Of a stretch of DNA of 64,000 nt, positions 7,934 through 54,939 are shown one piece after another. Under the pieces are notes generated by a model. That model saw only the letters and a list, made by a program, of their open reading frames with translations, searched no databases and was not told the origin of the DNA. The stretch's first letter is position 1. Every line of letters starts with the position of its first letter. Source of the DNA: Vampirovibrio chlorellavorus. Lineage in GTDB: Bacteria; Cyanobacteriota; Vampirovibrionia; Vampirovibrionales; Vampirovibrionaceae. The translations under genes were made by a program, and so were the position numbers. The stretch covers positions 124,001 through 188,000 of the forward strand of contig CAIPMU010000002.1 in assembly GCA_903866275.1 (NCBI GenBank). The letters are read 5' to 3'.

Positions 7934-8109
7934 CTGATTTCGGTACATTCACGGCTAAGGGATTTGGGAGTGGGCGCTGTGTCAATGACACTAGCTCGGT
8001 GGATAGTCCATGTTCCAGACAATGGGGGATTGCCCTGATGGAGGTCAAGGGCTACGATGAACACATCAATAGCCAGCAGCGTCAGGCAAGCGGCGCTGGA
8101 AGGAGGGGC

Positions 8110-8856
8110 ATGACTTTATCTGCGGGACAACCATCACAATCCCAAAGTTCGACTGGTGCTCATGCGTCCGTGGGGCAGTTTTTTGATCAGTTGAGCGCCA
8201 GTTATGATGCTGCGATTTTAAAGGGTATTCCGCCGTATGCGGAGTTGATTGGCAGTGTGTTGGGCTATTGTGACATGGATTCAAACCGACCCTGGTCTAT
8301 TTTGGAGCTGGGGTGCGGGACGGGTAATCTGTCGCTGGCGATTCGGGAGATGTTTCCAAAGTCAAAGCTCACGCTGGTGGATTTATCCCCCGAGATGTTG
8401 ACGCAGGCCGCCGCCAAGTTAAAGCAGGCGGGAACGCCTGAAGACCATCTCACCCTAGTAGCCAACGGATTTATGGCGCTGGATTTTCAACCGCAGTCCT
8501 TTGATTTGGTGATCTCCAGCATGGCCTTGCACCATTTGCTGGATTCCGAAAAACCGGTTTTATATCAACGAATTTTCAACTGGCTGAAGCCCGGTGGTTT
8601 GTTTCGCTGCGTGGATGAGACGCTCTCGTTGCCTGCCTTTGCGCAGGCCAAAAACATGACCCTGTGGGAAGCCTGGGCCAGAGAGTCCGGGGCGACTACG
8701 GAGGATTTGCAGGTGTGGATTGATCATGCGGAGCAGCATGACCACTATGCCCCACTGGCAGAACATTTTCGCTGGCTGCAAGCGGTGGGTTTTAGCAATG
8801 TGGATTGCTACTGGCGTAAGTTAATGTGGACCACTTTTGGCGCTCTAAAGCCTTGA
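8110..8856 (+). CDS. Class I SAM-dependent methyltransferase
   Basis: 248-residue methyltransferase of unknown substrate. Motif I is ILELGCGTGNLSLA, followed by the acidic strand-2 residue in LTLVDLSPEM. A post-II region with the loop VISSMALHHLLD and LKPGG resembles small-molecule methyltransferases of the UbiE/Tam type. The start is set by GGAAGGAGG just upstream of ATG 8110. The open frame extends to 7876, but that part overlaps the fabF terminator and is unlikely to be translated. It lies alone between fabF and a minus-strand orphan. Confidence 0.82.
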   Translation: MTLSAGQPSQSQSSTGAHASVGQFFDQLSASYDAAILKGIPPYAELIGSVLGYCDMDSNRPWSILELGCGTGNLSLAIREMFPKSKLTLVDLSPEMLTQAAAKLKQAGTPEDHLTLVANGFMALDFQPQSFDLVISSMALHHLLDSEKPVLYQRIFNWLKPGGLFRCVDETLSLPAFAQAKNMTLWEAWARESGATTEDLQVWIDHAEQHDHYAPLAEHFRWLQAVGFSNVDCYWRKLMWTTFGALKP

Positions 8857-8921
8857 CATCCAGAGGCCAAGATGCTGATGGGGTTCATTTTTAATAAGTG
8901 GAACCATTAAAAAGTACGTGT

Positions 8922-9509
8922 TCACATTGAATTCAGTTGAAGTTCACTGCTAATTGGCAGGGATGTATAGATGTAGGTCATTGGAAATTTAAGGACTTTG
9001 GGTGTGAGGATTTTGCTAATTTCGGCTTTCTTTTGATTGTTTTTAGTGGTTACCGTGATCAATAAACTTTCGGTTGAATCATCACCCAAGGTTCGGTGTT
9101 CTTCATAGTTTTGGCTCGAATCTTGATAGCGAAAGTGCTTTGATTCAACCTGGTTTAGGCGCTTTAAATGATTGGGTTTGCCTAGGTAGATCTGGTCTTG
9201 TTGCGTGATTATAAATGCTCTGCCATCTTTTAATTTGCCTGCATGGTAAAGCTTATCCTCATTAGCGAAGCCTTTCTTGTCTTTCAGGCTGCTTGCCAGA
9301 TATTGGAGATCTTGCAATGTGAGTTTCAGGGGGCACAGTTTATCGGCCAGTTTGGAAACATCGTTTTCTGAAGAAAAAGAATAGCTATCCCCGTTGTGTC
9401 TGGCAGGATGTGTGGTCTGTGCCGTACGTTGCAATTGAGATGAATGCGTCCCTGAGAAACGGCAATTACTGGCACTAACCGCCAAAGGTCTATCCCATTG
9501 TGGTTTCAT
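8922..9509 (-). CDS. Orphan protein with N-terminal CRFSG motif
   Basis: 195 residues, not recognised. There is no signal peptide or membrane segment. The first 45 residues are polar and probably disordered, and include Cys16-Arg-Phe-Ser-Gly20, which resembles short motifs near the N-termini of other orphan proteins here (21513, 22826, 63580). The rest looks like a small alpha/beta domain rich in Lys, Ser and Leu (for example DGRAFIITQQDQIYLGK). AAGGA precedes the start at a normal distance. Codon use is more AT-rich than that of the metabolic neighbours. Confidence 0.6.
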   Translation of the reverse strand: MKPQWDRPLAVSASNCRFSGTHSSQLQRTAQTTHPARHNGDSYSFSSENDVSKLADKLCPLKLTLQDLQYLASSLKDKKGFANEDKLYHAGKLKDGRAFIITQQDQIYLGKPNHLKRLNQVESKHFRYQDSSQNYEEHRTLGDDSTESLLITVTTKNNQKKAEISKILTPKVLKFPMTYIYTSLPISSELQLNSM

Positions 9510-9632
9510 TTCTTGAATGTCCTTGTTTTGGGTGGGGTAAATCTAAAAGCTGGCCATTAATTATTTTTTAAATCTAAAAAATTAGGAGGAAGAAATGAGA
9601 AGAAGATTAGTGAGAAATGGATGCATTCAATC

Positions 9633-9663
9633 AAAACAGGGCAATCATGAAAATTGCCTGTTT
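9633..9663 (-). terminator. Terminator of the ilvE-mlaE strand
   Basis: On the minus strand, AAACAGGCAAT pairs with ATTGCCCTGTTT (one bulged base) around a short loop and is followed by TTTGATTG. It lies about 20 nt past the stop of the mlaE-like gene. Confidence 0.55.
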
Positions 9664-9684
9664 GGGGGAGGATGGGGTGGAGAT

Positions 9685-10530
9685 TTATCCGTTGCCATCC
9701 AGGGTGGTGCCAAAAAAGATCCAGGTGAGAAAAAAATCGGCAATGATAATGATAATAGATATCCAGACCACCGCTTTGGTGGTGGAACGCCCCACATCCT
9801 GCGCGCCGCCTTTGGTGCTGATACCCACCGTGCAACTGATAGCGCCCAGAATCAGGCCGAAAATGACTGCCTTGAGCAGGCTGACCCGGATGTCGTAGGG
9901 TTTCAGGTAAAGCAGCACGGATTCGATGTACTTGTGATAATGCAACCGGGCTACGGATTGGGCCACCAGCATCCCGCCGATGATGGCCACCACTTCCCCG
10001 AGGATGGTGAGCATGGGCAGGGCAATCATACAGGCCAGAATACGCGGGGCAATTAGATAACGCACCGGATTCACCCGCATCACCCGCAGGGCGTCAATCT
10101 GTTCGGTCACTTGCATGTTGGCGATTTCCGCCGCGATCGCGGTACCCGCCCGCGCCCCCACGGCCAGACAGGTAAAAATGGGGCCGATTTCCCGCACGAT
10201 GGCCAGCGCGACCAGCCCGCCTACATAGGCATCCGCCCCGGTCTGGGCGAATTTATCGGCGGTTTGCAGCGCCAGTACGGACCCGGCAATCAGGCAGATC
10301 AACATGCTCATGCCCATCGAATCAAAGCCCACGGCGGCGGTCTGGGTGAGTGTCTTCATCACATCAAAGCGGAAGGTGATGATATAACGCAGGCTTTCCC
10401 ACGTGGTGAGAAATAGCGTACCCGCTGCCTCAAAGAAGTCCAGGACCGGCGCCTCAATGCCCAGCACCACACCCGACCGGGCCTGAGTGGGCAGGCTGGA
10501 CTTGGCTGGCTGTGACTTGGGCTCAGGCAT
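9685..10530 (-). CDS. mlaE: MlaE-family ABC transporter permease
   Basis: Inner-membrane permease of the MlaFEDB type, moving phospholipid or a hydrophobic compound between envelope membranes; in chloroplast/cyanobacterial relatives the family is TGD1-like. 281 residues with five or so hydrophobic segments. The hallmark stretch is IVREIGPIFTCLAVGARAGTAIAAE, given here only as residues about 115-139, followed by MQVTEQIDALRVM. A 35-residue polar N-terminus precedes the first helix. No MlaF ATPase or MlaD substrate-binding gene is adjacent. It lies 70 nt after ilvE and may share its transcript. Confidence 0.9.
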   Translation of the reverse strand: MPEPKSQPAKSSLPTQARSGVVLGIEAPVLDFFEAAGTLFLTTWESLRYIITFRFDVMKTLTQTAAVGFDSMGMSMLICLIAGSVLALQTADKFAQTGADAYVGGLVALAIVREIGPIFTCLAVGARAGTAIAAEIANMQVTEQIDALRVMRVNPVRYLIAPRILACMIALPMLTILGEVVAIIGGMLVAQSVARLHYHKYIESVLLYLKPYDIRVSLLKAVIFGLILGAISCTVGISTKGGAQDVGRSTTKAVVWISIIIIIADFFLTWIFFGTTLDGNG

Positions 10531-15828: not shown

Positions 15829-16599
15829 ATGCAACATCGTAAACAGTGGGTGGCTTTCTTATTGAGCGTTGGCGTGATGTCTTCACTCTGCCTGGCGGGT
15901 TACGCGGATCCCGGTAGTGGTGCTGGCGCTTCCTCGGGCGGGACACAGGCTGCTCCCGGAAATTTTAACCGTGGTATCGGTAATGGCCAATGGGCCCAAA
16001 ATCACCCGCGTACAGCGGAGTATTTGAAAAATCATCCGGAGATGGCCGATCGGGTTCAGGAACGGCGGGCTGAACGACGTGAAGAGCGTCGTGATGATCG
16101 ACAAGCAGGTCAACCGAATGGCCAGGGAAATGGCCAATGGAGGCAAAACCATCCGAAAGCGGCTGAATTTGCCAAGAATCATCCCGAAATGACTGATCGG
16201 ATGCAGGATCGTAATCAGGATCGCCGGATGGACCGTAGACAAGATCGCCGTGCAGATGGTTCTGGCGCTCAGGGAACTGGTCAATGGGCGCAAAACCATC
16301 CGCGAGCGGCTGAGTTTGGAAACAACCACCCTGAAATGGCCGATCGGATGCAGGATCGCAATCAGGATCGCCGGATGGATCGTAGACAGGACCGCCGTGC
16401 AGATGGTCTTGGCGGTCAGGGGAATGGTCAAGGTCCTCGCCAATGGGGTCAGAATGGGGGCTTTGCCGGTAATGCTGAGCGGATGCAGGCCCGGAATCCG
16501 GGTGGCCTCAGAGACGGCACTGCCAGCGGTGATCGTCCCCAGTTGGGTGGCGGCCCTGGAAACGGGCAGTTTGCGGGTGGCGCTCGTCGACATCAATAG
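15829..16599 (+). CDS. Secreted Arg/Asp/Gln-rich protein with three tandem NHP repeats
   Basis: 256 residues. A signal peptide is clear, with cleavage likely after AGYA (about residue 26). The mature part carries three copies of a unit of about 48 residues. Each opens with GQW-x-QNHP, continues with AE and NHPEM-x-DR, and ends in a very charged segment (QDRNQDRRMDRRQDRR). Copies 2 and 3 are nearly identical. The tail is Gly/Arg/Gln-rich. The alternating Arg/Asp stretch is probably a long charged helix, and the His/Asn/Pro corners could bind metal. I do not recognise the family. A 234-nt AT-rich leader precedes it. Confidence 0.75.
   Translation: MQHRKQWVAFLLSVGVMSSLCLAGYADPGSGAGASSGGTQAAPGNFNRGIGNGQWAQNHPRTAEYLKNHPEMADRVQERRAERREERRDDRQAGQPNGQGNGQWRQNHPKAAEFAKNHPEMTDRMQDRNQDRRMDRRQDRRADGSGAQGTGQWAQNHPRAAEFGNNHPEMADRMQDRNQDRRMDRRQDRRADGLGGQGNGQGPRQWGQNGGFAGNAERMQARNPGGLRDGTASGDRPQLGGGPGNGQFAGGARRHQ
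15985..16420 (+). repeat. Three tandem coding repeats in the NHP protein gene
   Basis: Units begin near 15985, 16129 and 16279 (GGCCAATGG/GGTCAATGG words). The second and third share long identical stretches such as GATGCAGGATCG and CAGGATCGCCGGATGGA, pointing to recent duplication. Confidence 0.75.
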
Positions 16600-22825: not shown

Positions 22826-25156
22826 ATGTCGGAAATCATTTCCCGGTCTCGTCCTGTGCTTAGCATGTCTCAACGGGAGCTATCTGAGAAGCAAATCAGA
22901 ATGGCATCGACGTACCCCCTGACAAGCCGGTTGAATGTGTCGGACAACCGAGCGCAGTCCAGTCTTTTCAACGCTGACAGTGCCGGGGATTCGGTTCATT
23001 TTTCGGGAAAAGATAACAGGAAGCGGGCACGGCCCTCGCTCAAGCCGAATGACAATCCACCAGAACCACCAGAGGATCCCATAGACAGTGATTCGGAAGA
23101 TGATCAGTTTCCATCCCGAAATCCGCTTTCGGGAAAAGATAACAGGAAGCGGGCACGGCCCTCGCTCAAGCCGAATGACAATCTACCAGAACCACCAGAG
23201 GATCCCATAGACAGTGATTCGGAAGATGATCAGTTTCCATCCCACAATCCGTTCAACAGTTTGGTTCAACTGCTGACCGGAGGTGCCGGGGTGCAACCCA
23301 AAGGCCCCAGAGTTGCCCCTAGTATGCTGATGCAAAAAAATATTCAGTCTTTAGAGGCCAAAAATTCCGACTGGAAGGCTTACAGGGCCGTGGCGGAACC
23401 TTTTGCCCATCAGTTGGCGGATATTCTGGATCGCACCCACCTGAAGCATGTGGTGCTACAAGGGAATAATGAGCAGCTTCAGCAGGCGATTATGATGACC
23501 TTAAAAGAAAATGCCAAGGATAAGTCATTTTACAAGGTGGATGCCTCACACGATAGCCTGGATGGGATTAAGCGCTTTTATCGGGGGCCAGCCCTGGCGA
23601 ATGAACTGACCAGACCCGCTGCCGAATTTGGTTTGTCTTCCGAAAAGCCGACGGTGCTTTATGTGCAGAACGTGGATGATGAGCGTGAATTGAATGCCTT
23701 GAAAGATGGAGCGCTTTTTCAGCGCATTCAGGATGAAAACCCGCATTATCGGTTCATTATTGCCCAGCCTGAAGAGGACCATCATGAGCATGGCGCGGAT
23801 GAGCATAGCGAAATTCTGTCATTGGGCAAGATTATGCTTATCCCGAATGGGGAACAGGAGACTTTGCCAGTGAGCAAAGAAAAAGCGCCCTTTGATGTGA
23901 TCAAGGTACCCCAGTTGACCACGAGTCAATGGGCAACAGTGCTGCCTCAAGACCCTGTGGTTCAGGGGATTTTTAAGCATCGTAAACTGGCATTCACCCC
24001 AGATACTTTAAAGCTGTTTCTGGATGGATTGCCCGGCCAGAAGAAAAAGCCACTGGATCGAGACAGTATCCTGACGCATCTGGAGCATTTTGGTAGTTTT
24101 GTTCGCAATTCAAAGTCAGGCAAGCTTTCCCAAAGTGACATTGAAGCGTTTCACAAAAAAGTGAATCCACAGGCTCTGATTCTGTCAGGCAAGCGGCCCG
24201 CATTGTCCGCTGAGCCGAAAGACCAGAAGCCCTATAAAATTATCAAGGCCAGCGATATTAATACCCGACTGGATGATGTGGTGGGCCTGGAGGAGGCCAA
24301 AGTCACCCTTAACCGGGTGTTGAAAAAAGCGCGTTTCCCTCGGTTCAATTCGTTTTTAAGCAAGAATGATACCGACAGCCAGACGGATCGGGTGTTGTTA
24401 ATGGGCGAACCGGGTGGTGGCAAAACCATGCTGGCCAAGGCCATGGCGGGTCAGGGGAAGGCCACTTTCATCAGCACCTCAGGTTCACAGTTTGTGAATA
24501 TTTATGTGGGCATGGGCGCTAATAATATGCGTCAGTTGCAGGATGCCATTAATCACGCCACCGAGGATCTGGTGGTGGTGTTTATGGATGAAATCGACAG
24601 TTTGGGCAATCGGGAGTCTGGCAGCGGCCTGGGCGGTGGAGGGGCTCGGGAAGAGACCCAGACCATCAACCAGTTTTTGGCCCTGACAGAGGGGATCGAA
24701 AAAGACAAGAAAAAAGTGTTGCTGATTGGCGCCACCAACCGCCCAGAAGCCCTTGACCCAGCTATCCTGAGCCGCTTCCATCATAAAATTCAGGTGGGCA
24801 AGTTGACAGCGCCCCAGCGTAAATTGTTGCTGGAAAAACAGATGGCCCAAAAAATGCTGAAACCCGATAAAAGCGTGGATCTGGATGAGGTTGTCAAAGA
24901 GACGAATGGCTTCAGTGGGCGGGATATTCGGAACGTGATGAAGTTAAGTCAGGAGATGTTGATCGATCAGCTGCCCATTACCGAAATGGAGGAGCTGGAA
25001 AAGAATCCGCCACTGTTGAAAAACTTTAAATTGACCCTCACGGCAGATGTGCTGGAACAGGCGATTCATGATGTTAAAAAAGGCTGGGCAGATGTCCACA
25101 AAGGCCTCACGGAAAAACCCATGTCAGACGAAGTGCGGATGTCGATGTATACCTAG
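22826..25156 (+). CDS. Two-domain AAA+ ATPase, first domain degenerate, with duplicated acidic linker
   Basis: 776 residues from ATG 22826, with GGAGAG upstream. Residues 1-65 are polar and contain VHFSGK (57-62). Two near-identical 42-residue segments (about 59-142) are Lys/Arg then Pro/Glu/Asp rich. Residues about 195-420 look like a degenerate AAA+ domain: VVLQGNNEQ sits where Walker A should be and TVLYVQNVDD where Walker B should be. The second domain is intact: Walker A GEPGGGKT (527-534), Walker B VVVFMDEID (Asp588, Glu589), sensor 1 GATNR and an arginine in LSRFHH. It resembles the FtsH/spastin AAA class but has no protease or membrane part. Probably an unfoldase or remodeller of unknown target. 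Confidence 0.75.
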   Translation: MSEIISRSRPVLSMSQRELSEKQIRMASTYPLTSRLNVSDNRAQSSLFNADSAGDSVHFSGKDNRKRARPSLKPNDNPPEPPEDPIDSDSEDDQFPSRNPLSGKDNRKRARPSLKPNDNLPEPPEDPIDSDSEDDQFPSHNPFNSLVQLLTGGAGVQPKGPRVAPSMLMQKNIQSLEAKNSDWKAYRAVAEPFAHQLADILDRTHLKHVVLQGNNEQLQQAIMMTLKENAKDKSFYKVDASHDSLDGIKRFYRGPALANELTRPAAEFGLSSEKPTVLYVQNVDDERELNALKDGALFQRIQDENPHYRFIIAQPEEDHHEHGADEHSEILSLGKIMLIPNGEQETLPVSKEKAPFDVIKVPQLTTSQWATVLPQDPVVQGIFKHRKLAFTPDTLKLFLDGLPGQKKKPLDRDSILTHLEHFGSFVRNSKSGKLSQSDIEAFHKKVNPQALILSGKRPALSAEPKDQKPYKIIKASDINTRLDDVVGLEEAKVTLNRVLKKARFPRFNSFLSKNDTDSQTDRVLLMGEPGGGKTMLAKAMAGQGKATFISTSGSQFVNIYVGMGANNMRQLQDAINHATEDLVVVFMDEIDSLGNRESGSGLGGGGAREETQTINQFLALTEGIEKDKKKVLLIGATNRPEALDPAILSRFHHKIQVGKLTAPQRKLLLEKQMAQKMLKPDKSVDLDEVVKETNGFSGRDIRNVMKLSQEMLIDQLPITEMEELEKNPPLLKNFKLTLTADVLEQAIHDVKKGWADVHKGLTEKPMSDEVRMSMYT
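23001..23252 (+). repeat. 126-bp tandem duplication in the AAA+ gene
   Basis: Two copies begin at TTTCGGGAAAAG (23001 and 23127). They differ by only a few bases, such as AATCCACC versus AATCTACC, so the duplication is recent. The period of 126 is a multiple of three and adds 42 residues in frame. Confidence 0.92.
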
Positions 25157-51647: not shown

Positions 51648-51700
51648 GATTTTGCCGCCTTGCATCTGGTGGGCTACAGCGTCCAAAAGGGGCAAAAAGG

Positions 51701-51740
51701 AATATCCGGGAACCGTGTCAACACGATTCCCGGATATTTT
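51701..51740. terminator. Bidirectional terminator after asnB
   Basis: AATATCCGGGAA and TTCCCGGATATT pair perfectly, extended by an inner CGTG/CACG stem. TTTT follows on the plus side; the minus side has A/T-rich flanks. The giant repeat gene converges from the right. Confidence 0.85.
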
Positions 51741-51756: not shown

Positions 51757-54700
51757 TTATTGAGCCTGCATCTTCCTCAACATTTGCAGCAACAGGTTCA
51801 ACATCTGAAACAGTTGGGTGAACTGTTGCGGGCCAAATCCGGCGGGTGTGTTGCTGGCCGCAGCTGGTGTCGTGTTGATGGGTGAGTAGCCCGTTGCAGT
51901 GGATGGGGCTGGTTGAGCCGGCGTGTTGACGCTGCTGTTGTCGGCGGCAGCCGGTTTGGCTGGGGTGTGTGCTGCCACTGGTTTGGAGGGGCGTGCGGGA
52001 CGGTGCCGGTGGATATGAGTCGGGTGCTGAGGTGCGGTAGGGCGAGTAGCGCCTTTGGTATTATCCGGTGAATCAGCCGCGGGAGAATCGGGTTTGTAAG
52101 GCGCCTGGTTTGTATCCTTGCTGGGGGCCGGTGGAACGGGTGGCTTGGTGCCATAAGCTGGTGGGCAAGGCACACCGGGATGATCCGTTTGGGGATAGGT
52201 GTCGTGATTTTTGTCCGTTGCGGGTGGCTTTGGCGTTACCACGGGTGGGTTGGCAGGATAAGTGGGGGGGTAGGCGTTGTTATAAGCCACATCGACACCG
52301 TATTTTTTGTCGTAAATCGGGGTGCTGACGTTTTGGTAAACAGGCCGATCCTTGTAAACCGGTTTTTCTGTGTACACGGGTCGGTCGCTGTATTTGGGCT
52401 GCTCGGTATACACGGGACGTTCGCCGTAGGTGGGTTTGTCTGCGTAGACGGGTTGCTGGGTGTAGACCGGGCGTTCGCCGTAAGTGGGTTTGTCTTCGTA
52501 AATCGGTTTATCCGTGTAGACGGGCCGCTCTTTGTAAACCGGTTTATCTTGGTAGACGGGTTGTTGGGTGTAAACGGGTCGCTCGCCGTAAGTGGGTTTT
52601 TCTTCGTAAACAGGCTGGGTGTCGTAAACGGGCCGTTCACCGTAGGTGGGTTTGTCTGCGTAGACGGGTTGCTGGGTGTAAACGGGTCGCTCGCCGTAAG
52701 TGGGTTTTTCTTCGTAAACAGGCTGGGTGTCGTAAACGGGCCGTTCACCATAGGTGGGTTTGTCTGCGTAGACGGGTTGCTGGGTGTAGACGGGTCGCTC
52801 GCCGTAAGTGGGTTTTTCTTCGTAAACGGGCTGGGTGTCGTAAACGGGCCGTTCACCATAGGTGGGTTTGTCTGCGTAGACGGGTTGCTGGGTGTAAACG
52901 GGTCGCTCGCCATAGGTGGGTTGTTCTGCGTAGACGGGTTTATCGCTGTAAACCGGCCCATAAATGGGTGTTTGCGTGGTTTTGCTGGTGGACAGCGTGG
53001 TCGAATCCGGTTGGTTGAATTGAGCGTCGTAGTAAGTTTTCACGCCGTTGTAGGTTTGAGCCATGCCACCGGCAACGCCAGCGGAATCCCGGTATGTGCC
53101 AGCGCCATCCGGCACCCGGAAGCCATAGGTGGACTGGAACGTCGAGCGCATTTTATCCACTTGGGCGGGATCAGCGCCTGCGTCAATCAGTTTCTGACGG
53201 GTTTCTGCGGTAGGCTTGTCGTAGAATTCAAAGACCAGACGCTGTTCGTTGGTGCCGTTTTCACCGCCCGGCATGCTGGCATAGTAGAACTTGCCAGTGG
53301 GGTCGTTGGGATCTCCAATGACTTTGGTTTGACCGGGTAATAGGGGTGTTTTGCCGTCTAGCAGCAGTTGGCCGTTTTGCAGGATGTCGGTTTCTTCGTG
53401 CCCTTGATCGTCACGGGTCATGAAGGCATATTTGGTAAAGGCCTTGTTGCCCTGGCTGTTGATCGTATCCACCTGGGCGTTAATGGTTACCTTGCGGTCG
53501 GTGTCGCCACCGTGTTCGAACATGGTGTAGTTGCCTGTGCCTGGGGTAATGGTATCCGAGGCGTAGTTATTACCCTGACCGCCTACTTTGGGGTCGCCGG
53601 CAACGTACATGTTGTCCGATGTTTTATTATCGAAGATGCTTTCAGCGGTGCCGTTGGTCTGGTTGTCCTGGCTGGTCAGGCTGCTGACCCGGTATTGACT
53701 GGAATTGCTGGTAAAGAAGCTGTTGGCTTTGTTGGCGTCCAGCAATAGGCTGGTTCCCTGATTCAGAATATCGCCAACCGCCCCACCGTGAGAGAGTCCG
53801 TCCAGATCCCGGTTGACCGTGATGGTGCCGGTTTCAGTTTTGGTATCGTAGCCGACAATTTGGGTGCCGGTTTGCACTTTCTCGGTGCCGACCTGTACGG
53901 TTTGAGTACCGGTCTGATATTTCTCGGTGCCGGTCTGCACATTGTCGTAGCCGGTGAGTACTTTCTCGGTACCGGTCTGGTAGGTTTCCGTGCCGACCTG
54001 TACCTGTTTGGTGCCGGTTTGCACTTTTTCGGTACCGGTCTGATATTTCTCGGTGCCAGTTTGCACATTGTCGTAGCCGGTGAGTACTTTCTCGGTGCCG
54101 GTCTGGTAGGTTTCCGTGCCGACCTGTACCTGTTTGGTGCCGGTTTGAACCGTTTCGGTACCGGTCTGATATTTTTCAGTGCCGGTCTGCACATTGTCAT
54201 AGCCGGTAAGCACTTTCTCGGTGCCGGTCTGGTAGGTTTCCGTGCCAACCTGAACCTGTTTGGTGCCGGTTTGAACCGTTTCGGTACCGGTCTGATATTT
54301 TTCAGTGCCGGTTTGTACGTTTTCGTATCCGGTCAGTACTTTTTCGGTGCCATCCTGATAGGTTTCGGTACCGGTTTGTACTTTTTCTGTTCCGGTTTGT
54401 ACTTTTTCGGTGCCAGTCTGGTATTTTTCAGTGCCGGTTTGCACATTTTCGTATCCAGTCAGTACTGGTTCGGTACCGGTCTGGTAGGTTTCCGTGCCGG
54501 TTTGTACTTTTTCGGTACCCGACTGGTATTTTTCGGTGCCGGTTTGCACTTTCTCGGTGCCTACCTGGTATTGCTCGGTGCCAACTTGTGTGCGGGTGGT
54601 GTCATAGCCGACGATATTGTCGCCGTTTTCAGTTGTACCGTTGTAGGAGAGGGTCATGGTTTGGTAATTGTTGTTGGTTGCATTGTAGTTGAGCGATTGA

Positions 54701-54939
54701 CCATCAGTATTGCCCAGTTGGTAAACCGTTCCGCCGGCCGAGATATACTGGGGTTGGCTACCCTGTCCAAAGGGGACACTGGTGGTGTCTGCGGGGAGGA
54801 CGAATGGGTTGCTGGTCGATGCGCCAACCACACTGGGGGTTGCCGCTGCTGTTGCCGTCGCGGAGATGCTGCTGGCGGTGGCAGGGGTTGGTGTAAATGC
54901 GGGATTGATAGTGCTTTGAGGTAATAAATTTAAGCTCAT
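51757..54939 (-). CDS. Giant protein with two unrelated hexapeptide-repeat arrays
   Basis: 1060 residues, no recognised family. Layout: residues 1-115 are Ser/Thr/Ala/Pro-rich with no signal peptide, and contain VPFGQG at 55-60. Residues about 117-365 are forty or so six-residue repeats of the type [KT][VY]QTGTE. Residues about 365-660 look like a folded domain. Residues about 660-876 are about 36 six-residue repeats of the PVYxxx/PTYGER type, rich in Tyr, Pro and Lys. A Pro-rich disordered tail follows, and the end is a short amphipathic helix (LFQMLNLLLQMLRKMQAQ). AAGGG precedes the start. Composition of the second array recalls Tyr/Lys/Pro adhesive proteins. Export without a Sec signal would need another route. 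Confidence 0.8.
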   Translation of the reverse strand: MSLNLLPQSTINPAFTPTPATASSISATATAAATPSVVGASTSNPFVLPADTTSVPFGQGSQPQYISAGGTVYQLGNTDGQSLNYNATNNNYQTMTLSYNGTTENGDNIVGYDTTRTQVGTEQYQVGTEKVQTGTEKYQSGTEKVQTGTETYQTGTEPVLTGYENVQTGTEKYQTGTEKVQTGTEKVQTGTETYQDGTEKVLTGYENVQTGTEKYQTGTETVQTGTKQVQVGTETYQTGTEKVLTGYDNVQTGTEKYQTGTETVQTGTKQVQVGTETYQTGTEKVLTGYDNVQTGTEKYQTGTEKVQTGTKQVQVGTETYQTGTEKVLTGYDNVQTGTEKYQTGTQTVQVGTEKVQTGTQIVGYDTKTETGTITVNRDLDGLSHGGAVGDILNQGTSLLLDANKANSFFTSNSSQYRVSSLTSQDNQTNGTAESIFDNKTSDNMYVAGDPKVGGQGNNYASDTITPGTGNYTMFEHGGDTDRKVTINAQVDTINSQGNKAFTKYAFMTRDDQGHEETDILQNGQLLLDGKTPLLPGQTKVIGDPNDPTGKFYYASMPGGENGTNEQRLVFEFYDKPTAETRQKLIDAGADPAQVDKMRSTFQSTYGFRVPDGAGTYRDSAGVAGGMAQTYNGVKTYYDAQFNQPDSTTLSTSKTTQTPIYGPVYSDKPVYAEQPTYGERPVYTQQPVYADKPTYGERPVYDTQPVYEEKPTYGERPVYTQQPVYADKPTYGERPVYDTQPVYEEKPTYGERPVYTQQPVYADKPTYGERPVYDTQPVYEEKPTYGERPVYTQQPVYQDKPVYKERPVYTDKPIYEDKPTYGERPVYTQQPVYADKPTYGERPVYTEQPKYSDRPVYTEKPVYKDRPVYQNVSTPIYDKKYGVDVAYNNAYPPTYPANPPVVTPKPPATDKNHDTYPQTDHPGVPCPPAYGTKPPVPPAPSKDTNQAPYKPDSPAADSPDNTKGATRPTAPQHPTHIHRHRPARPSKPVAAHTPAKPAAADNSSVNTPAQPAPSTATGYSPINTTPAAASNTPAGFGPQQFTQLFQMLNLLLQMLRKMQAQ
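52310..52960 (-). repeat. Coding repeat array 2 (PVYxxx hexapeptides)
   Basis: 18-bp units grouped in a 108-bp higher-order repeat of six hexapeptides, present about three times between roughly 52565 and 52900 with few differences. Confidence 0.92.
53846..54591 (-). repeat. Coding repeat array 1 (QTGTE hexapeptides)
   Basis: 18-bp units grouped in a 126-bp higher-order repeat of seven hexapeptides (each ending near VLTGYD/EN), about four to five copies, the middle ones almost identical. Confidence 0.92.

Follow-up and report, generated by a model that had tools for sequence, protein, structure and literature searches.

Two repeat arrays of unlike sequence, matched in unit number, order and charge, suggest a zipped stalk in a Vampirovibrio protein

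We describe a Vampirovibrio protein in which two repeat arrays of unrelated sequence, one with units of seven and the other with units of six residues, flank a central domain. The two arrays have the same number of units, their unit types follow one another in mirrored order, and the residues that come opposite each other are complementary in charge and size. Equal counts, mirrored order and charge matching make it very probable that the arrays zip one to one, and from the sequence comparison we are confident that the pairing would be antiparallel. It is likely that the result is a hairpin stalk, zipped from the two arrays and carrying the central domain at its tip, and that the protein is a fibrillar adhesin, secreted or held at the surface.

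Results

The DNA analysed, here called the window, is a stretch of 64,000 nucleotides from contig CAIPMU010000002.1. A preliminary description, made from the sequence of the window, had proposed a single gene for a 1060-residue protein, and this was borne out: the 1060 residues are encoded by one open reading frame of 1060 codons with an ATG start (Table 1). A database search recovered the same proteins from Vampirovibrio sp. and Vampirovibrio chlorellavorus NCIMB 11383. The amphipathic helix described at the C-terminus was seen in the AlphaFold model, with low confidence, and in the Vampirovibrio homologues, too, the chain finishes with a short helix that is hydrophobic or amphipathic.

The upstream neighbour is separated from the array gene by a gap of 341 bases. 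The adjoining genes in this genome (Gfo/Idh, GT2, epimerase, Asn-synthase) form a surface-sugar operon, which sits between the array gene and membrane protein/exonuclease genes. The operon reported beside the gene is thus real in this genome, but in the three relatives with both gene flanks compared no match to a sugar-operon gene was found at the locus, so the operon is of little help in judging function. It is the gene of the CCA-adding enzyme that is conserved next to the array gene, in five genomes. Elsewhere in the window, short tandem repeats of 147 bp and 126 bp, with about two copies each, were seen at 16123-16431 and 23001-23251.

Table 1. Features of the array gene and its 3' flank, in positions of the window.
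Feature	Position	Strand	Remark
Whole gene, 1060 aa	51757..54939	-	Starts at 54939; orthologues at the same locus in other Vampirovibrio genomes
N-terminal region, residues 1-115	54595..54939	-	No Sec signal; conserved NPFVLP...SQPQYIS..VYQ segment
Array 1 outer cap IVGYDTT, residues 109-115	54595..54615	-	Similar cap in 4/4 homologues
Array 1, 35 heptads x[VY]QTGTE, residues 116-360	53860..54594	-	Invariant Gly
Array 1 inner cap IVGYDTK, residues 361-367	53839..53859	-	
Central domain, residues 370-643	53011..53832	-	Vampirovibrionales only in the searches made; also in array-free paralogues
Invariant Gly-Asp-Pro of the central domain, residues 448-450	53590..53598	-	12/12 homologues; weak match to GDPH domains
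Array 2 inner cap TPIYG, residues 657-661	52957..52971	-	
Array 2, 35 hexads P[VT]Yxxx, residues 662-871	52327..52956	-	
Array 2 outer cap STPIYDKKY, residues 872-880	52300..52326	-	
C-terminal amphipathic helix, residues 1041-1059	51763..51819	-	AlphaFold, low confidence; Vampirovibrio homologues likewise end hydrophobic
Intrinsic-terminator-like inverted repeat and T run	51690..51740	-	Directly 3' of the gene, by reading

Two long arrays around a central domain, with higher-order repeats in the DNA, had been noted before and were confirmed, the repeat of 126 bp corresponding to six heptads of array 1 and that of 108 bp to six hexads of array 2. The six-residue period that had been ascribed to both holds for array 2 only. 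Array 1 has a unit of seven residues, [KT][VY]QTGTE, and is strictly heptad, with an identity of 0.58 at lag 7 as compared to 0.004 at lag 6, whereas the unit of array 2 is six residues, PVYxxK/PTYGER, with an identity of 0.38 at lag 6. At the higher-order period the identity is 0.87 in array 1 and 0.70 in array 2. The periodicity of both arrays was above that of every shuffle, the shuffle maxima over all lags from 1 to 80 being 0.27 and 0.21, respectively. Repeat copies differ more at synonymous than at nonsynonymous sites in both arrays (pS 0.49 and pN 0.04 in array 1, pS 0.39 and pN 0.14 in array 2). In each array the units are most alike in the middle and diverge towards the ends, and cap motifs, IVGYDT-like and TPIY-like, are found at both ends of both arrays in all four proteins. 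Matches to the heptads or the Tyr repeats in other cyanobacteria and in plasmids were rejected as single-array look-alikes by composition.

The arrays had also been called independent, and this did not stand, as both copy numbers and residues are coupled between them. Array 1 was counted as the longest run with Gly at every seventh residue before the central domain, and array 2 as the longest run with Tyr or Phe at every sixth residue after it. By this rule the numbers of heptads and hexads are equal in all four full-length proteins, 35/35 in the window protein and 31/31 in V. chlorellavorus; one relative (G002) has two paralogues, with 49/49 and 19/19. The paralogues of G002 have central domains that are 94.5% identical and N-terminal regions that are only 21% identical, and they are thirty units apart, equally in both arrays. 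The higher-order periods, expressed in units, agree between array 1 and array 2 as well: 6/6, 3/3, 5/5 and 3/3 in the proteins with 35, 49, 31 and 19 units, where the 49-unit protein has an irregular but mirrored array, and 5/5 in a fifth copy that is broken across contigs. Equal counts in four separate genes from three genomes make it unlikely that the repeats are an assembly artefact, an explanation that the preliminary description had kept in view. In two other relatives contigs break off within or at the arrays (L029 1-708; L030 2-766; L032 1-653), and the copy number is unreadable there.

A process at the DNA level, or common ancestry, could give equal counts without any pairing of the protein, and would agree with the homology of the four genes and with the uniform middles and divergent ends of both arrays. 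The units are, however, 21 and 18 bp long with unrelated sequences, and the four values of N (19, 31, 35 and 49) are matched every time. Complementary charges in a single register, as described below, are not expected from a DNA process either, and we find this explanation extremely improbable.

The unit types are mirrored between the arrays, heptad k going with hexad N+1-k, and this includes the irregular array of 49 units. Recurrent partners are xYQTGTE with PTYGER, and xVLTGY with the PVYADK/PQYEDQ type. In a held-out test, the rules derived from three proteins ranked antiparallel shift 0 first among 42 registers for each of the four proteins, and in a control with 26 trained registers antiparallel zero generalised best, also when the array ends were trimmed. 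Parallel pairing of the arrays was rejected as it scored worse than antiparallel. Total mutual information by itself does not tell antiparallel shift 0 from shift -1, and where the arrays are strictly periodic it gives some parallel registers equally high scores. The ambiguity between shifts 0 and -1 is explained by the register at residue level.

The position pairs 1-5, 2-4 and 7-6 (heptad position first, the last with the next hexad) are among the strongest covarying. Between heptad position 7 and hexad position 6, 102 of 130 pairs have opposite charges and 2 have like charges, which gives a net charge score of 100 against a mean of 54 and a maximum of 74 in 5000 shuffles. Opposite charges are found in 72 of 134 pairs between heptad position 1 and hexad position 5, and like charges in none (maximum of 5000 shuffles, 63), and the charge matching at 7-6 and at 1-5 is in both cases the best of 26 registers; since the four proteins are related, and the repeats within an array are too, shuffle P values overstate the certainty. 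Tyr at heptad position 2 lies opposite Gly or Ser at hexad position 4 in 48 of 52 cases (Fisher P 1e-21, a value that ignores the relatedness of the repeats).

The covariation statistics would be identical if the arrays paired one to one between two molecules, in a domain-swapped dimer or a larger bundle, and a lone two-stranded ribbon would presumably expose a face rich in Val, Tyr and Thr. A zero-offset antiparallel register beside a domain that joins the arrays is, however, simplest within one chain. Pairing within one chain is in our judgement quite likely, and pairing between molecules rather unlikely.

Matches to known families point to another reading, namely that the arrays are two independent fibres, array 1 a beta roll as in grass ice-binding proteins and YadA-type heads, and array 2 a Tyr/Pro/Lys glue resembling extensin/PRP and mussel proteins. 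Array 1 shares a seven-residue period with Gly with LbR_Ice_bind, a beta roll (PF21300), and with TIGR03057, and is above both cut-offs; PF21300 matches with 47.2 bits against a gathering score of 30, at the stretch 187-272 and others. In the PDB, a YadA-type adhesin and an ice-binding protein of a grass were matched, and relatives show extensin- and cementoin-like composition. However, the PF21300 and TIGR03057 models describe single arrays, whereas the heptads here co-vary with a second array, which argues for a partner of array 1 other than itself. Array 2 resembles plant extensins, proline-rich proteins and mussel foot proteins in its Pro-Val-Tyr-rich repeats, a likeness in composition alone, and differs from them in having a partner array that matches its Tyr repeats. 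Independent fibres would leave the equal counts and the cross-array charge matching in four proteins unexplained, and appear very improbable.

Vampirovibrio has the central domain, and more distant versions are present in further genera of the order Vampirovibrionales. Beyond the order it was not found in 382 genomes of the class, in a GTDB-wide scan or in viral contigs, the collections being scanned with short peptide patterns. Searches of Pfam, NCBIfam and PDB sequences gave no credible family match, and the best PDB sequence match, an amidohydrolase (E 0.02), was judged to be due to chance. The preliminary description had set its surface protein against a cytosolic enzyme; the profile search of the domain gave no cytosolic enzyme family, and the best structural matches, all sub-significant, were extracellular von Willebrand D domains. 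A low-confidence model of the domain, built from seven sequences (pLDDT 52), had MUC2, MUC5AC and Cypridina luciferase as its top probable Foldseek matches (E 0.1-0.3, none significant). The domain was rejected as a member of DUF1521, as hmmscan gave no match and hhalign to DUF1521 was not significant.

The central domain also occurs in array-free paralogues, together with TP-rich linkers and a second, DUF1521-like domain. DUF1521 autocleaves after Asp in GDPH with Ca2+ (PMC6506597), and it is conceivable that the array protein is a processed exoprotein, in which a GDPH-type (von Willebrand D/DUF1521) domain would cut itself at Asp449-Pro450 and the halves would be held by the zipped arrays. 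Such processing would be an addition to the zipped stalk, and compatible with it. Gly-Asp-Pro, a likeness to DUF1521 (MIIA, NopE) and von Willebrand D, is invariant in all twelve homologues, the weak structural search gave a beta-rich von Willebrand D-like fold with von Willebrand D domains as the top probable matches, and the second domain of the paralogues is related to DUF1521 (hhalign E 2e-6). Against this, the central domain matches the second domain poorly (E 0.012, probability 3.5%), the structural matches have E 0.1 or worse with a model of pLDDT 52, and the His of GDPH is not conserved. The central domain also differs from both groups in having no family match and no Cys. We find self-cutting improbable, and Asp449-Pro450 is a candidate cleavage site as a lead only.

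Central-domain paralogues are conserved in the genus at another locus (L031 7704-9782, minus strand; L027 8245-11199, plus; L028 367-2934, minus; L026 near 8001-10400, minus). They have long TP repeats, a domain that resembles DUF1521 (mostly GDPH) and, at the C-terminus, a hydrophobic helix. One array paralogue (L034 1202-3904) has a C-terminal domain resembling a calcium loop, LDLDGDG, and two other genera have this domain in their distant homologues (L051, L053). One other family of the class often carries DUF1521 (GDPH) domains, a single genome giving up to seven matches (L070, L077, L080 and others).

Discussion

In the stalk that we propose, the arrays would zip antiparallel, one heptad per hexad, into a long hairpin. 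The central domain would lie at the turn and form the tip, and we infer that the N-terminal region (residues 1-115) is the base, together with the Pro-rich C-terminus and its helix. Heptad position 1 would be opposite hexad position 5 (K with E/D), 2 opposite 4 (Tyr opposite Gly/Ser), 3 opposite 3 (Gln-Tyr) and 4 opposite 2, Gly5 would face Pro1, position 6 would bulge, and position 7 (Glu) would come opposite the Lys/Arg at position 6 in the hexad that follows. The leftover position 6 adjoins the invariant Gly, opposite Pro, and one bulged residue per unit would both reconcile seven residues with six and explain the invariant Gly. A beta ribbon with one bulge per unit is fairly probable. At about 2 nm per unit, a two-stranded ribbon is estimated to reach about 70 nm here, and 38-98 nm in the relatives. 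The low-confidence full-length AlphaFold model shows the array ends that adjoin the domain as long strands (345-374 and 648-674); with a pLDDT of about 22 in the arrays its quality is too poor for it to serve as proof of the stalk.

The extended fibre of the preliminary description stands in part. Our best guess is still a long and extended protein, secreted or at the surface, but its arrays would form one paired structure.

A comparable arrangement is known from antigen I/II (SpaP, SspB), where the A and P repeats associate and, in SpaP, hold the V domain more than 50 nm out, heptad Tyr meeting Pro-containing repeats in the stalk (PMC7732690). The Vampirovibrio protein is similar in that two unlike arrays flank a central domain and would associate antiparallel, here as read from counts and covariation. 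In contrast to antigen I/II it has no Sec signal, LPXTG or Ala-rich helix repeats, its units are of seven and six residues, rich in Gly, Val and Tyr, with counts from 19 to 49, and it belongs to a Gram-negative relative of the cyanobacteria. Pfam and NCBIfam gave no match to antigen I/II domains. As signal, anchor, repeats and domains all differ, the likeness is a functional analogy and apparent convergence, and not membership. We lean towards regarding the protein as a new architecture, in which two unrelated arrays of seven- and six-residue units flank a domain, evolve together in copy number, unit order and charge, and would form one bulged antiparallel beta ribbon, giving predatory Vampirovibrio an adjustable stalk of 19-49 units. 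Literature searches turned up no account of paired arrays of this kind with equal unit numbers, a limited argument for novelty.

It is probable that the stalk is secreted or at the surface. The N-terminus, MSLNLLPQSTINPAFTPTPATASS, was read as having no charged and hydrophobic leader, in agreement with the earlier statement that there is no Sec signal, and by reading the LPXTG sortase anchor is also absent from the protein sequence. The genome carries HlyB/HlyD loci beside RTX-like proteins, so type I export of the array protein is possible. Two such loci in the window's own genome (HlyB/HlyD, TolC-like; L068 7704-18025 and L069 7979-16728) each lie beside a large protein that is repeat-rich or RTX-like.

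V. chlorellavorus lives as an obligate predator on the alga Chlorella, to which it attaches via a pad described as of unknown composition, which was proposed by the authors to be a type IV secretion system (PMC4451040). The stalk protein may be part of this pad. It would be a secreted or surface-held fibrillar adhesin that presents its tip domain, perhaps for attachment to the algal prey, a role that we suggest tentatively from the biology of the organism.

The protein is a concrete candidate for a surface component of Vampirovibrio. Its arrays give a clean natural record of two repeat arrays that co-evolve unit by unit, and their contact register can be read from the sequence, which makes stalk length, pairing rules and the design of length-tunable zipped fibres testable. 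For annotation, the lesson is that seemingly independent repeats can be halves of one structure.

Another protein (L015 724-2838), judged by reading only, appears to be an odd chimera: its N-terminus is like that of a type IV pilin, its VAIG repeats are like those of YadA heads, and its C-terminus resembles a phage-type intramolecular chaperone.
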